Source: Phaeocystidibacter luteus
GTDB taxonomy: Bacteria; Bacteroidota; Bacteroidia; Flavobacteriales; Schleiferiaceae
Direction of reading: 5' to 3'
Assembly: GCF_008933115.1 (NCBI RefSeq)
Contig: NZ_WBVO01000005.1
Span: 124,001-188,000 of the forward strand
DNA: 64,000 bases
The notes under the pieces were generated by a model, which saw nothing but the letters and a program-made list of their open reading frames with translations, did not search any database and was not told the origin of the DNA. Both the position numbers and the translations under genes were made by a program. Shown here piece after piece: positions 56,571 to 62,778 of the stretch (position 1 is the stretch's first letter; each line of letters starts with the position of its first letter).

Positions 56571-57158
56571 TTACTTCTTTCGAGGCATATAAGAAGTAGG
56601 GTGTTTTGGACGATCAGCCTCTACTTCGCGAAGGGGCTCCACTGCCTCCAAATGCTCGTGAAGTTCGCCCGGAAGTTGTTGATAGAGCTTCGTTCCTTCC
56701 GTTTTCCAATCAATCATTTCGTCGCTTACCTCTTTCACAATTTTTACTGGATTGCCCACGGCAACACTGCGACGAGGAATTCTCGTTTTCTGTGGGACAA
56801 AACACAAGGCCCCTATGATGCACTCGTCTTCGATGACCACTTCGTCCATCAAAACAGCATTCATTCCAACGAGGCAGTTCTTGCCAACTTCAGCCCCATG
56901 CACAATTGCACCGTGACCTATGTGTGCGCCTTCGTGAAGTGTAACCGTCACTCCAGGGAACATGTGCACCGTACAGTTCTCCTGTACATTACAGCCGTCC
57001 TTTATTACAATTCTTCCCCAATCACCACGAAGTACACACCCCGGACCGATGTAGACATCTTTACCGATAATCACATCGCCTGTAACATTGGCCTGTGGGT
57101 GAACAAACGCCGATTCATGTACTACGGGAGTGAATTCTTTGAAGCGGTAAATGGCCAT
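56571..57158 (-). CDS. paaY: PaaY-type hexapeptide-repeat thioesterase/carbonic-anhydrase-like protein
   Basis: A 195-residue left-handed beta-helix protein of the PaaY/gamma-carbonic-anhydrase family. Hexapeptide repeats run from VTGDVIIGKDVYIGPGCVLR through VQENCTVHMFPG, HEGAHIGHGAIVHGAEVG and VEDECIIGALCFV-like turns (here IEDECIIG), with the His metal ligands in CTVHMF and IGHGAIVHG. In the phenylacetate pathway PaaY hydrolyses dead-end CoA thioesters. It is the last gene of the leftward paa operon, starting directly after the OmdA-like gene. Confidence 0.9.
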   Translation of the reverse strand: MAIYRFKEFTPVVHESAFVHPQANVTGDVIIGKDVYIGPGCVLRGDWGRIVIKDGCNVQENCTVHMFPGVTVTLHEGAHIGHGAIVHGAEVGKNCLVGMNAVLMDEVVIEDECIIGALCFVPQKTRIPRRSVAVGNPVKIVKEVSDEMIDWKTEGTKLYQQLPGELHEHLEAVEPLREVEADRPKHPTSYMPRKK

Positions 57159-57758
57159 CTACTTTCGGTATTTGTGATTGAGGTCAAGGTTTGCTTCTAG
57201 AAGCTCCATAACCTTAGCGACTCTGCGAACCTTGGTTTCTTCCTTCGCAGCAGAGTCTATGTGCTGAATGAACTCATTTCTTTTGCCGAATGACATCGCT
57301 TCGAAGTTTTCTTTTGCTCTCGGACTGTTAGACAACGCATTGGCAAATACCTCCGGAATTGCATCTTGCTTTGTCTGTTTTTTAGGCTTGGTTTTCTTTC
57401 CTGCAAGACTGTTTTCAATAGCCTCTTCGATGTACGCCTTGATGAGGTCTCGGTCTAACTCATCACCTTCAACAAATCGCCACTGACGCAGCGCGTCGGT
57501 GCTTTCATTTGCGGACATCAAAACCTGGCTTGGGTCTTTTAAGAATACACCTTGATAGAACCAAAGCGCCACATGGTTTTTGAATGCAGCAATAGACGCC
57601 ACATTACCGTTGTTCATGTACGTTGGAGCACCCCATTTCACTCCTTCTTCCAAATCACAACTGACGAGAATCGAGCGGAGCTCTTTCAAGGTCGAACCTT
57701 TCCATCCGTCGCCCTTTTTCTCAATGTATGCGGTCACTTTTTCTTCTGCCGAAGCCAT
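57159..57758 (-). CDS. YdeI/OmdA-like protein (DUF1801 + bacteriocin-protection family)
   Basis: A 199-residue cytosolic protein. The N-terminal 100 residues are DUF1801-like (WKGSTLKELRSILVSCDLEE, VKWGAPTYMNNGNVASIAAF, HVALWFYQGVF), and after a Lys-rich linker (GKKTKPKKQTK) the C-terminal part is OmdA-like (IPEVFANALSNSPRAKENFE, KRNEFIQHI, TKVRRVAKVMELL). No enzymatic role is known. It sits between paaJ (3 bases upstream) and paaY (directly abutting), so it is transcribed with the phenylacetate genes without an obvious reason. Confidence 0.82.
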   Translation of the reverse strand: MASAEEKVTAYIEKKGDGWKGSTLKELRSILVSCDLEEGVKWGAPTYMNNGNVASIAAFKNHVALWFYQGVFLKDPSQVLMSANESTDALRQWRFVEGDELDRDLIKAYIEEAIENSLAGKKTKPKKQTKQDAIPEVFANALSNSPRAKENFEAMSFGKRNEFIQHIDSAAKEETKVRRVAKVMELLEANLDLNHKYRK

Positions 57759-57761
57759 GGC

Positions 57762-58973
57762 TTACAGTTGAGTGTTCTCTATGATTGTAGCGTACCCTTG
57801 CCCAACACCAATGCACATGGACACTAGGGCATATTTCTTTTTCTTTTGAATGAGTTCAATAGCAGCTGTTTGAAGAATCCGTGAGCCACTCATTCCAAGC
57901 GGATGGCCAATGGCAATCGCGCCTCCATTCGGATTTACGCGAGGATCATCATCCGCAATGCCTAGCTCTCGGGTGCAAGCAAGCACTTGAGCAGCAAAAG
58001 CTTCATTCAGCTCAATGATGTCCATGTCATCTATCGTTAGTCCTGCTTTTTTCAATGCTTTTTGGCTTGCGTACACAGGTCCAATTCCCATAATTCTCGG
58101 CTCAACCCCAGATACGCCACTAGAAACGATGCGTGCCATAGGTGTGAGGTTGTGACTTTTCAACCCATCTGCGCTAGCAATGAGCAAGGCGCCAGCACCA
58201 TCGTTGAGGCCTGAACTGTTACCGGCCGTTACGGTTCCACCTTGGCGAAACGCTGGGCGAAGGCCCGCAAGAACCTCTGTAGTGGTCGTGCTTTTGATAA
58301 ACTCGTCGTCCGTGAATGCAAGCGGATCTCTCTTGCGCTGAGGGATGCTCACAGTTGTAATCTCTTGGGCAAGTCTACCTGAGCGTTGCGCTGCGGCAGC
58401 TTTTTGCTGAGATCGATAAGCGAACAGGTCTTGATCTTCTCTTGAGATGTTGAATTTTTCGGCCAGGTTTTCAGCGGTTTCACCCATTGCTTCCGTGCCG
58501 TACATCTCCTTCATTTTTGGATTGATGAACCTCCACCCAAAGCTTGAGTCATACATCTTGCTATCCGTGCCAAATGCACGAGAAGATTTGCTCATTACGT
58601 ATGGCCCTCTGGTCATGTTTTCAACTCCGCCGCTAATAAATAGGTCGCCGTCGCCATGGGCTACCGCTCGCGAAGCATGAATAGCTGCACTCATTCCCGA
58701 AGCACAAAGACGGTTTACCGTTTCACCCGGAACACTCCATGGCAAATCTGCCAGAAGCAACGCCATACGTGCAACGTTTCTGTTGTCTTCTCCGGCTTGG
58801 TTTGCACAACCGAGAATGACATCATCTATAGCAGCAGGGTCGATATTGGGATTGCGATTGACAAGCTCTTTGATAACAATGGCAGCCAAATCATCTGTGC
58901 GAACAGCGCTTAGGGTGCCACCGAACTTACCAATTGGGGTGCGGATTCCGTCGACTATGAAAGCCTCTTTCAT
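57762..58973 (-). CDS. paaJ: 3-oxoadipyl-CoA/3-oxo-5,6-dehydrosuberyl-CoA thiolase
   Basis: A 403-residue thiolase that performs the two CoA-dependent cleavages of phenylacetate breakdown, giving acetyl-CoA and finally succinyl-CoA. The nucleophile Cys is in [13 protein letters not shown] (near 90), and the second-half catalytic residues are in [17 protein letters not shown] (His near 353) and SMCIGVGQG (Cys near 390). The opening [17 protein letters not shown] is the typical PaaJ/PcaF start. The gene is within the leftward paa operon. A TAACTTTG element 33 bases upstream, inside the end of the kinase gene, could give an internal promoter. Confidence 0.92.
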
Positions 58974-58994: not shown

Positions 58995-59930
58995 TTAAAC
59001 GCGACCCAAAGTTATGGAGAATTGAGCACCTTTCGTGTCTAGGTTCTTTGCGCTCAATTTTCCACCGCCAATCTCCATGAATTCTTTTGTTAGGAATAGC
59101 CCGACACCCATGCTCTCGGTTGTTTTTGAAAGTGTCTTTGTTTGACTAGCGTCTAGCAACTCGTCCAAGCTTTTCGCGGGTATGCCCGGACCTTCATCAA
59201 TTACATGCAGTTTAAGAGTAGTGGAGTTTACCTCAGAGACAATTCGTACTGGAGCAGATTCCGGCGAGTGCTTCACGGCATTGTTCACCAGGTTGGTAAG
59301 GGCAATTATCACGACGTTCGGATCGGTCTCGAGTACGAGTTCATCGTCCCAGTTTATCTGTAAACCATTGCTTCTATGTATGGCGAATTGATCTCCGTAT
59401 CGTTGAACCTCAGTGCGAATTTCTCCGAGTTTGAATCGTTTGATTTCTAGGGAGGATTCATGCATTCTCAGCTTCACCCAATACGTCAATCGGTCTAAGG
59501 TGTCCTTTGTAAACTGAAGCTGGGGTTCAAGTTGCTCCATAATGGCGAACAACTCTTCCTTGGTCATATCTTCTTTCATCAAATCCATCAAATTGATGAG
59601 CATACCAAGGGGGCTGCGAACATCATGGCTTATGATTCCAAGAAGTTTGGAGCGCATTTCATTTTCCTCTTCGAGGAGGGCCTTGGTCTTTTCAACCCTC
59701 TTCCAAAGCTTGATGATGTAGTGGCTCGTAGGCCACGCCACAACTAGAGGAATTGCAAAGGAAATGACGAAGCCGTACCATCCGGTTGGATAGTCGGAAA
59801 GCATCCAAAAGTAGAAAATGAGATAAATGAGCTCCGAGGCAAGGATACTCACAGCCGTGATTGCGAAAGGGGTGAAATACCACTTTCCGACCGCTGTCAG
59901 CGCTTGGGGTTTGTTAGATTCTCGGGCCAT
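58995..59930 (-). CDS. Sensor histidine kinase inside the paa operon
   Basis: A 311-residue kinase with two N-terminal helices (about 16-40 and 50-70, WYFTPFAITAVSILASELIY and GFVISFAIPLVVAWP) joined by a very short outside loop, so there is almost no extracellular sensor. A coiled coil leads to HisKA with phospho-His in LGIISHDVRSPLG (near 103). The HATPase has N box LTNLVNNAVKHS, G1 DEGPGIP and G2 MGVGLFLTKEF. No receiver domain and no response-regulator gene is adjacent. The 5' end overlaps paaI by 34 bases, a strong sign of co-translation. A role in sensing phenylacetate metabolites is inference from position only. Confidence 0.88.
   Translation of the reverse strand: MARESNKPQALTAVGKWYFTPFAITAVSILASELIYLIFYFWMLSDYPTGWYGFVISFAIPLVVAWPTSHYIIKLWKRVEKTKALLEEENEMRSKLLGIISHDVRSPLGMLINLMDLMKEDMTKEELFAIMEQLEPQLQFTKDTLDRLTYWVKLRMHESSLEIKRFKLGEIRTEVQRYGDQFAIHRSNGLQINWDDELVLETDPNVVIIALTNLVNNAVKHSPESAPVRIVSEVNSTTLKLHVIDEGPGIPAKSLDELLDASQTKTLSKTTESMGVGLFLTKEFMEIGGGKLSAKNLDTKGAQFSITLGRV
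59007..59014 (-). promoter_or_regulatory. Possible internal -7 promoter element (TAACTTTG) before paaJ
   Basis: TAACTTTG on the minus strand 33 bases upstream of the paaJ start, within the 3' end of the kinase gene. A chance match is possible, so confidence is low. Confidence 0.3.
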
Positions 59931-60334
59931 TCTTCTTCACGGTAAAAGACCGTTCCTTTGAATAAAGCTACGGTTTTACCTTTTTGGTTGGTGACGATCA
60001 CCTCATAAATTCCAGTTCGCTTGGACTTATTCTTCTCAACCGCCTCGGCTGTGAGCACGTCGCCAATAGCCACTGGACGTGTATGCGAGATTGAGGTTTC
60101 AATGCTCACTGCCTGCGCTCCATATCCATTGGAGGCAAAGGCTAGAGCGCTGTCTGACAGACTGTAGGTAATCCCACCATGGGCAATTTTAAAGCCATTG
60201 GTCATTTCCTCGCGCACAGTCATTTGCAGCTTGGAGTTTCCAGGTGAAACGTGAAGCACTTCAATGCCCAACCACTGACTAAAGTCGTCGTTGGCCATCA
60301 TGTAGTCCACTATTTCCCTCGATCTATCAGGCAT
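59897..60334 (-). CDS. paaI: Hydroxyphenylacetyl-CoA thioesterase
   Basis: A 145-residue hotdog-fold thioesterase of the PaaI family, which frees CoA trapped as ring-hydroxylated phenylacetyl-CoA. The active-site motif is FKIAHGGITYSLSDSALAFA (about residues 48-67), with the conserved HGG and Asp. SIETSISHTRPVAIGD completes the fold. It overlaps the unknown-protein gene upstream by 8 bases and the kinase gene downstream by 34 bases, the most compact part of the operon. Confidence 0.92.
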   Translation of the reverse strand: MPDRSREIVDYMMANDDFSQWLGIEVLHVSPGNSKLQMTVREEMTNGFKIAHGGITYSLSDSALAFASNGYGAQAVSIETSISHTRPVAIGDVLTAEAVEKNKSKRTGIYEVIVTNQKGKTVALFKGTVFYREEEWPENLTNPKR

Positions 60335-60841: not shown

Positions 60842-61999
60842 TTAAAAGAATGTCTTTCCACTTTTAGCCATGCGCTTCAGCAATACACATGGGCGATATC
60901 TATCGTCGCCGTATTCAGCGAACAAACCTTCTAGCCGTTCAAGAACCGTTTCAATTCCAATTTCATCTGCCCAAGCCAAAAGACCTTTAGGGTAATTCAC
61001 ACCCTTTGTCATGGCTAGGTCAATGTCTTTTGGAGTGCCAATTCCCATGAGCACAGCATCGGCCGCTTCATTAATAAGCATGGCAACGATTCGGTCAACT
61101 ATTTGGCGTCCGAGTGTTTCATCCTTATTTGGGTCCGGCATTTCAGCACCTTCTGTATAATTGAACCATCCTCGGCCTGTTTTGCGCCCAAGCATGCGCC
61201 CCTCTAAAAGTCGTTTTTGACTGATAGATGGTTTGAAACGTGGATCATAGAAAAATTCTTTCCAAACGGTTTCGGTAACCACGTAGTTAACGTCGTGACC
61301 AATAAGATCCGTGAGCTCGAAGGGTCCCATTCGGAACCCACCGATGGTCTTTAGGGCATGGTCTATCGTTTCTGGCGAGGCAACACCCTCTTCATACATT
61401 TTAATTGCTTCGCTGTAGAAAGGTCGCGCAACACGGTTCACAATAAACCCAGGCGTGTCCTTGGCGAGAACCGTCACCTTCTTCCATGAATCTACAAGAG
61501 CTCTAGAGCTTTCTGTAACCTGGTTTGAAGTGAGCATGGATGGTACAATCTCAACCAAAGGCATCAGAGGAGCAGGGTTGAAGAAGTGTATGCCAACCAC
61601 CCTCTCTGGATGCTTTGCAACGGCAGCAATAGATGCGATGCTGAGGGAAGATGTATTGGAGGCCAAAATGGTCTCTTTCGAAACAATGCCTTCGAGCACC
61701 TCAAAAACGCTCTGCTTGGCCGACAGCTTTTCGATGATGGCCTCGATGACCAACCCCGTGTTTTTCATGGGTTGAAGGCTATCCACGTAATGCACTCTGC
61801 CAAAAGTTGCGTCTTTGTCCTCTTGAGTAATTCGACCTTTTTCTACGAGGCGGTTGAGTATAGCTTCTAATTTAGATTTGGCCTTCTCAAGTGCGTGATT
61901 TTGGGTATCGTATACATAAACGGTATGTCCACTTTGCGCCGCTACTTGAGCGATGCCATTTCCCATGGCTCCTGCGCCAACTACTCCTACTTCGATCAT
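60842..61999 (-). CDS. paaH: 3-hydroxyadipyl-CoA dehydrogenase
   Basis: A 385-residue NAD-dependent dehydrogenase that oxidises 3-hydroxyadipyl-CoA in phenylacetate breakdown. The NAD-binding motif GVVGAGAMGNGIAQVAAQSG opens the protein, followed by SNTSSLSIASIA, VVGIHFFNPAPLMPLVEIVP (catalytic His near 138) and the C-terminal helical domain with GPFELTDLIGHDVN and KTGRGWFNY. It is shorter than E. coli PaaH (about 475) because the second C-terminal repeat is reduced, which is normal for many Bacteroidota. It starts 5 bases after paaG. Confidence 0.92.
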   Translation of the reverse strand: MIEVGVVGAGAMGNGIAQVAAQSGHTVYVYDTQNHALEKAKSKLEAILNRLVEKGRITQEDKDATFGRVHYVDSLQPMKNTGLVIEAIIEKLSAKQSVFEVLEGIVSKETILASNTSSLSIASIAAVAKHPERVVGIHFFNPAPLMPLVEIVPSMLTSNQVTESSRALVDSWKKVTVLAKDTPGFIVNRVARPFYSEAIKMYEEGVASPETIDHALKTIGGFRMGPFELTDLIGHDVNYVVTETVWKEFFYDPRFKPSISQKRLLEGRMLGRKTGRGWFNYTEGAEMPDPNKDETLGRQIVDRIVAMLINEAADAVLMGIGTPKDIDLAMTKGVNYPKGLLAWADEIGIETVLERLEGLFAEYGDDRYRPCVLLKRMAKSGKTFF

Positions 62000-62004
62000 A
62001 GGGA

Positions 62005-62778
62005 TTAGTGTCCTTTAAATTCTGGTTTGCGCTTTTCGAGAAAGGCTTGAGTACCTTCCTGATAGTCGTGAGTTCTCCCGGCTTGCGACTGTAGCTCGTC
62101 TTCTAAATCGAGCTGCTGTGTCAAGTTGTTAGAGAGACTCTGGTTCAGTGCACGCTTAGTTAACCCAAGGCCTTTTGTAGGCATTTGAGCGAGCATGTGT
62201 GCTGTTTTCTCTATGGTTGATGCAAAATCTTCTTCGGCAACAGCCTTGTAAATCATTCCCATTTGCTCTGCATCCTTGGCTGAGACTTTTTCACCGGTCA
62301 TCATGAGTGCAGACGCTCGCTGCCAACCAATGAGACGTGGTAAAAAGAACGTACCTCCGCTATCTGGGATTAGGCCAATTTTGGAGAAGGCCTGAATAAA
62401 TGAGGCCGATTCGCTTGCTATAACAATATCGCAGGCGAGTGCAATGTTTGCTCCGGCCCCTGCCGCAACACCGTTCACTGCCGCGATGATGGGCTTTTCA
62501 ATTCTACGAATGCGTTGAATAATCGGATTGTAGTGCTCACTCACAATAGCTGTAAGCTCTGGACCGTGCGGATCGGTCGCTTCGGCAAGATCCTGTCCGG
62601 CACAAAAAGCTTTTCCTTCACCAATAAGCACGATGCATCGAATAGAATCATCCGACGATGCATTGTCCAATTTGCCCTGGAGGTCGAGCGCCATATCTCG
62701 AACAAAGCTGTTGAACTTCTCAGGTCGATTCATGCGAAGCGTACAGACCCCGTTCGCGATTTCTTCAATAATGTACAT
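62005..62778 (-). CDS. paaG: 1,2-epoxyphenylacetyl-CoA isomerase
   Basis: A 257-residue crotonase-fold isomerase that converts ring-1,2-epoxyphenylacetyl-CoA into oxepin-CoA. The first oxyanion segment GEGKAFCAGQDLAEATD (about 52-68) has the FCAGQDL typical of PaaG; the second is AVNGVAAGAGANIALACDI (about 98-116); the acid-residue segment is FSKIGLIPDSGGTFFLPRL (about 130-148), with Asp rather than the second Glu of true hydratases. It is the first gene of the leftward paa operon, with TACCTTCG upstream. Confidence 0.92.
   Translation of the reverse strand: MYIIEEIANGVCTLRMNRPEKFNSFVRDMALDLQGKLDNASSDDSIRCIVLIGEGKAFCAGQDLAEATDPHGPELTAIVSEHYNPIIQRIRRIEKPIIAAVNGVAAGAGANIALACDIVIASESASFIQAFSKIGLIPDSGGTFFLPRLIGWQRASALMMTGEKVSAKDAEQMGMIYKAVAEEDFASTIEKTAHMLAQMPTKGLGLTKRALNQSLSNNLTQQLDLEDELQSQAGRTHDYQEGTQAFLEKRKPEFKGH

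Follow-up and report, generated by a model that had tools for sequence, protein, structure and literature searches.

The question raised by this locus is why a histidine kinase gene is placed inside a phenylacetate (paa) operon, and whether the kinase serves the pathway with which it is encoded. The gene lies in a window of 64,000 nucleotides, the whole stretch of DNA that was analysed, from Phaeocystidibacter luteus (contig NZ_WBVO01000005.1, positions 124,001 to 188,000). The kinase was found to be a HisKA-type orphan in an unusual, genus-restricted place.

The described local regulators of paa genes are PaaX and PaaR, both of which are one-component repressors responding to phenylacetyl-CoA (PMC9493321, PMC13186573). 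A survey from 2026 of the surroundings of paa genes (PMC13186573) uses neither the term histidine kinase nor the term two-component, and two-component control of paa in trans has been reported for GacS in Acinetobacter, as cited in PMC9493321. No report of a kinase encoded within a paa operon was found in the literature searched, the coverage of which was partial.

The kinase gene within the paa run

Eight co-directional genes were found from position 62778 to 56571 in the order paaG, paaH, an unknown gene, paaI, the kinase gene, paaJ, a ydeI-like gene and paaY (Table 1), with successive gaps of 5, 11, -8, -34, 21, 3 and 0 nt, the kinase gene being the fifth. The preliminary description had given the kinase gene an overlap of 34 bases with paaI and a gap of 21 bases before paaJ in an eight-gene leftward run, all of which was confirmed from the coordinates. 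The ATG of the kinase was found within conserved Glu-Trp codons (GAATGG) close to the end of paaI. The paaD, paaABC and paaE-like reductase genes were located just outside the eight-gene run, in separate transcription units. The 167-aa protein encoded before paaI had no Pfam or NCBIfam match; its gene adjoined paaI in almost all of the family's genomes that were read and was not found in the 40 paaI loci from other families.

Table 1. Positions of the genes, kinase domains and related features (window numbering unless a locus is named)
Feature	Position	Strand	Remark
paaY-like hexapeptide protein	56571..57158	(-)	Pfam and NCBIfam
YdeI-like protein (DUF1801 and OmdA)	57159..57758	(-)	Pfam
paaJ, 3-oxoadipyl-CoA thiolase (PaaJ/PcaF)	57762..58973	(-)	TIGR02430 over cut-off
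Orphan HisKA/HATPase_c histidine kinase, 311 aa	58995..59930	(-)	ATG at 59930
HATPase_c domain, residues 203-308	59007..59324	(-)	N box (NxxxNAVK), DxGxG and GVGL invariant in three orthologs
Codon of putative phospho-acceptor His102 (HDVRSPL)	59625..59627	(-)	Invariant in three orthologs
Predicted membrane helix 2, residues 51-72	59715..59780	(-)	Hydropathy and AlphaFold helix 51-103, moderate confidence
Predicted membrane helix 1, residues 21-46	59793..59870	(-)	Hydropathy and AlphaFold helix, moderate confidence
Overlap of kinase start and paaI 3' end, 34 nt	59897..59930	(-)	
paaI, thioesterase	59897..60334	(-)	TIGR02286 over cut-off
Unknown protein, 167 aa	60327..60830	(-)	paaI neighbour throughout the family
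paaH-like 3-hydroxyacyl-CoA dehydrogenase	60842..61999	(-)	Pfam and NCBIfam
paaG-like isomerase	62005..62778	(-)	Pfam and NCBIfam
NrtR-like regulator, paaI/paaJ junction, genera g15 and g8	L054 7802-8503; L047 685-1413; L019, L025, L026, L027		

The genus was sampled by three genomes, the source and two others, and in both of the others the same kinase occupied the paaI/paaJ junction and started from the same codon, within the GAATGG of paaI. The overlap with paaI was 34, 31 and 19 nt in the three genomes, differing only through a shifting paaI stop. The kinase was 45% and 38% identical to its two orthologs, with 84% for paaJ and 72-76% for paaI. The substitutions in the kinase gene were distributed as 43/32/60% over codon positions 1/2/3, which indicates that the kinase is under coding constraint; together with the shared place and start codon, this makes a chance reading frame improbable. 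Another orphan kinase of the source genome was 51/47% identical to its genus counterparts, so rapid divergence may be common in kinases of this class. The retention of the kinase in place is modest evidence, since it comes from three genomes of one genus whose gene order is also shared elsewhere.

The kinase protein and comparable sensors

The kinase was found to contain a HATPase_c match (Pfam, E=1.1e-15) and a HisKA match below its cut-off (E=4e-4). The sequence around His102 was SHDVRSPL and the N, G1 and G2 boxes were present in the HATPase_c domain, as in the domains of HisKA kinases. In solved structures, the kinase model and profile matched the cytoplasmic portion of HisKA kinases such as WalK/YycG, HK853 and KdpD, with BceS lower down, and the profile matches began at kinase residue 82-92.

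Two predicted membrane helices with a loop of very few residues between them were found at the N-terminus, by hydropathy in the three orthologs and in the AlphaFold model (mean pLDDT 67; only about 60 in the membrane region). This supports the small hairpin sensor region of the preliminary description, in which the protein was a two-helix kinase with almost no outer domain. In the model, the helix 51-103 leaves the membrane straight into the dimerisation and signalling helix, followed by a normal ATPase domain. Intramembrane-sensing kinases are defined by two N-terminal helices with fewer than 25 residues between them and no outer domain (PMC4388633), and each of these features was present in the predicted protein. 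No ABC transporter or membrane-protein accessory component was found among the products of the eight-gene run.

In SaeS of Staphylococcus aureus, two helices are connected by a linker of 9 residues (PMC4388633), and fatty acids inhibit this kinase (PMC5539427). The kinase resembles SaeS and BceS in its two membrane helices with a short linker, the lack of an outer sensor domain and the HisKA/HATPase output, and BceS structures were matched both by the profile and by a fold search with the kinase. However, SaeS and BceS each rely on accessory proteins and a regulator of their own, whereas no such partner is linked to the kinase, and the likeness is one of architecture.

It is very improbable that the main activity of the protein is that of a phosphatase or of a modulator of another two-component system. 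Such a role would agree with the lack of a partner, the weak HisKA score and the presence of Ser or Gly four residues after His102 in the three orthologs, whereas the histidine and all motifs of the ATP site were invariant and the close relatives look like ordinary kinases.

Distribution, origin and orphan status

The paaI gene was present in 18 of the 19 genera of the family. Outside the genus, no kinase was found directly downstream of paaI in 35 genomes from the 17 other paaI-bearing genera of the family (in two of these genomes, G003 and G015, paaI lies away from paaJ), and no kinase was found between paaI and its neighbours in 40 genera across the rest of the phylum. Retention of the kinase in the paa operon of related Bacteroidota, proposed earlier as a check, was seen in all three genomes of the genus and not beyond it. 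A location elsewhere in relatives, which would have spoken against a tie to the operon, was not encountered, since the searches uncovered no close relative beyond the operon; a scan of genome contigs with the kinase alone gave one distant match (24%).

The junction between paaI and paaJ was elsewhere either empty or filled by other genes. Of the genomes read, five of g15 and one of g8 carried an NrtR-like winged-helix regulator at this place, and hit coordinates placed it beside paaI in two further g15 genomes; it is a possible paa regulator in these lineages. Other occupants in Bacteroidota were an S23-like four-helix protein, a GxxExxY-like protein and a YpfJ-like metallopeptidase, these names being assigned by eye from the sequence, without a family search. 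The kinase as a plain replacement of a lost NrtR-like gene was rejected, the closest relative of that gene in the source genome being located beside trxB, outside the operon.

Kinases of other kinds were also observed near paa genes. In G014 (genus g13), a different HisKA kinase was found directly upstream of paaG (L052 16969-17922, minus strand); it was not detected in G028, which also belongs to g13. A kinase of another type, with a propeller-like outer part and an HHRVKNN motif, was convergent to an enoyl-CoA hydratase gene about 5 kb from paaI in three genera of a different family (L172 1-1314, L173 3-1430 and L177 2-1018).

In a tree of 33 kinase rows, the three paa kinases formed one clade (support 100/99), and the nearest sequences outside the genus were orphan kinases of G023 (C33) and G064 (C1), with moderate support (88/91). 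These closest relatives are TPR-type orphan HisKA kinases of Bacteroidota with no response regulator seen adjacent; unlike the paa kinase, which has the hairpin only, they are ORFs of 467-693 aa with a long N-terminal region that is TPR-like by eye.

Of the 43 receiver domains found in the source genome, the nearest was located 35.4 kb from the kinase, within a hybrid kinase, in agreement with the earlier remark that no partner regulator lies nearby. In the source genome, no receiver was found within 4 kb for 5 of the 7 members of the wider clade that could be scored, counting the paa kinase, as would be expected for kinases signalling in trans, against about 6 of the 34 other HATPase proteins, these counts being based on PF02518 alone, by which some kinases are missed, such as a TPR protein matching HisKA_3. 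The Fisher p of about 0.01 for this excess is only indicative, because the clade was picked after the tree was seen, the 34 proteins include some that are not kinases and the wider clade is moderately supported. Judged from these sequences, the missing neighbour regulator is ordinary for the clade of the kinase, since its near relatives are mostly orphans too.

A LuxR/NarL-type regulator (G000 C23:117251-117871) was considered as a candidate partner. It was 86-87% identical in both other species and 38% or less in the other genera sampled, with no HATPase_c match nearby, and was rejected because in each of the three genomes the gene immediately upstream encodes a TPR protein that matches HisKA_3.

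The variety of occupants bears on whether the kinase merely borrows the operon for its expression, the junction tolerating insertions and the function being unrelated to phenylacetate. The S23-like, GxxExxY-like and YpfJ-like genes in the same junction, the rapid change of the kinase beside paa enzymes that evolve slowly and the orphan status typical of its clade are all consistent with such a passenger. However, the same start codon was kept in all three species despite differences at about 60% of third codon positions, and two other genera carry a regulator in the junction; we therefore consider this reading quite unlikely.

Regulation of the paa genes and the possible role of the kinase

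No PaaX or TetR-type gene was found beside the operon. PaaX had no match over the cut-off in the source genome, and only two TetR-type genes were found as candidates for PaaR, neither of them near the paa genes. Just past the window end, a 464-aa protein is encoded beside paaD (L059 10283-11677, plus strand, corresponding to 64282-65676 in window numbering). All three genomes of the genus encode it (61/55% identity), and a shorter relative with 27% identity was found within the paa operon of G012. The protein contained a Kelch-like region (weak Pfam matches) and one membrane helix, followed by a highly conserved basic C-terminal part with predicted helices and then two strands, an order that would fit a winged helix, although the AlphaFold model is poor (pLDDT 49). 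It is a candidate membrane-bound local paa regulator and a rival to the kinase in that role.

StyS/StyR, which controls the styrene genes upstream of phenylacetate, offers a known case of a histidine kinase associated with a gene cluster for aromatic catabolism that feeds phenylacetate (PMC2442086). The paa kinase is small, membrane-bound and alone; StyS, by contrast, is a large hybrid kinase that contains PAS domains and is encoded together with StyR, its regulator. With PaaX and PaaR the kinase would share the theme of regulating phenylacetate degradation, but these are one-component repressors and none was found at the kinase locus.

The kinase could be a dedicated regulator of phenylacetate catabolism that reports flux or toxic intermediates in place of PaaX or PaaR. 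Its position within the operon with a translational overlap, the lack of PaaX over the cut-off and the distance of both TetR-type genes from paa agree with this role, as do the NrtR-like regulator in the same junction of two other genera and the kinase upstream of paaG in G014. Nevertheless, no partner regulator is linked to the kinase, most genera keep paa without it, and the membrane protein beside paaD is an alternative local candidate in all three genomes. The association with paa genes was found in one genus only, and not conserved across lineages as would mark a dedicated paa regulator. The position and the missing partner, from which a different kind of signal had been proposed, are weak evidence for a paa-specific signal, because the junction also takes unrelated genes and orphan status is usual for the clade. 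A dedicated role is accordingly rated as unlikely.

The explanation that we prefer, and to which we give about an even chance, is that an orphan kinase was inserted once, in the common ancestor of the genus, and that its synthesis is tied to paa expression and its signal sent to a distant regulator. A HisKA-type orphan kinase would have entered the paaI/paaJ junction once and been inherited there since. Translational coupling on the paa mRNA is probable, since the start codon of the kinase lies inside paaI, and with presumed co-transcription the dose of the kinase would follow paa expression. The membrane hairpin would feed directly into the signalling helix and the dimerisation domain. The signal would probably arise in the membrane or the cytosol or be passed on by a partner protein in the membrane, because an outer sensor domain is lacking, and by analogy with SaeS the input could plausibly be a membrane-active acid or a change in lipids. 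The kinase would probably autophosphorylate on His102 and pass the phosphate to a response regulator encoded elsewhere. Control of paa itself by the kinase is possible, to which its position alone points.

It is an improbable, more speculative suggestion that the genus swapped the control by a phenylacetyl-CoA repressor for a membrane kinase whose production keeps pace with the pathway enzymes. This kinase, possibly together with the membrane protein beside paaD, would report the membrane or flux status of phenylacetate catabolism to a regulator acting in trans. Should the kinase sense the pathway, phenylacetate operons, for which PaaX and PaaR are the local regulators described, would gain two-component control. 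Different lineages seem to place different genes in the paaI/paaJ junction, and two kinds of these occupants are signalling or regulatory.
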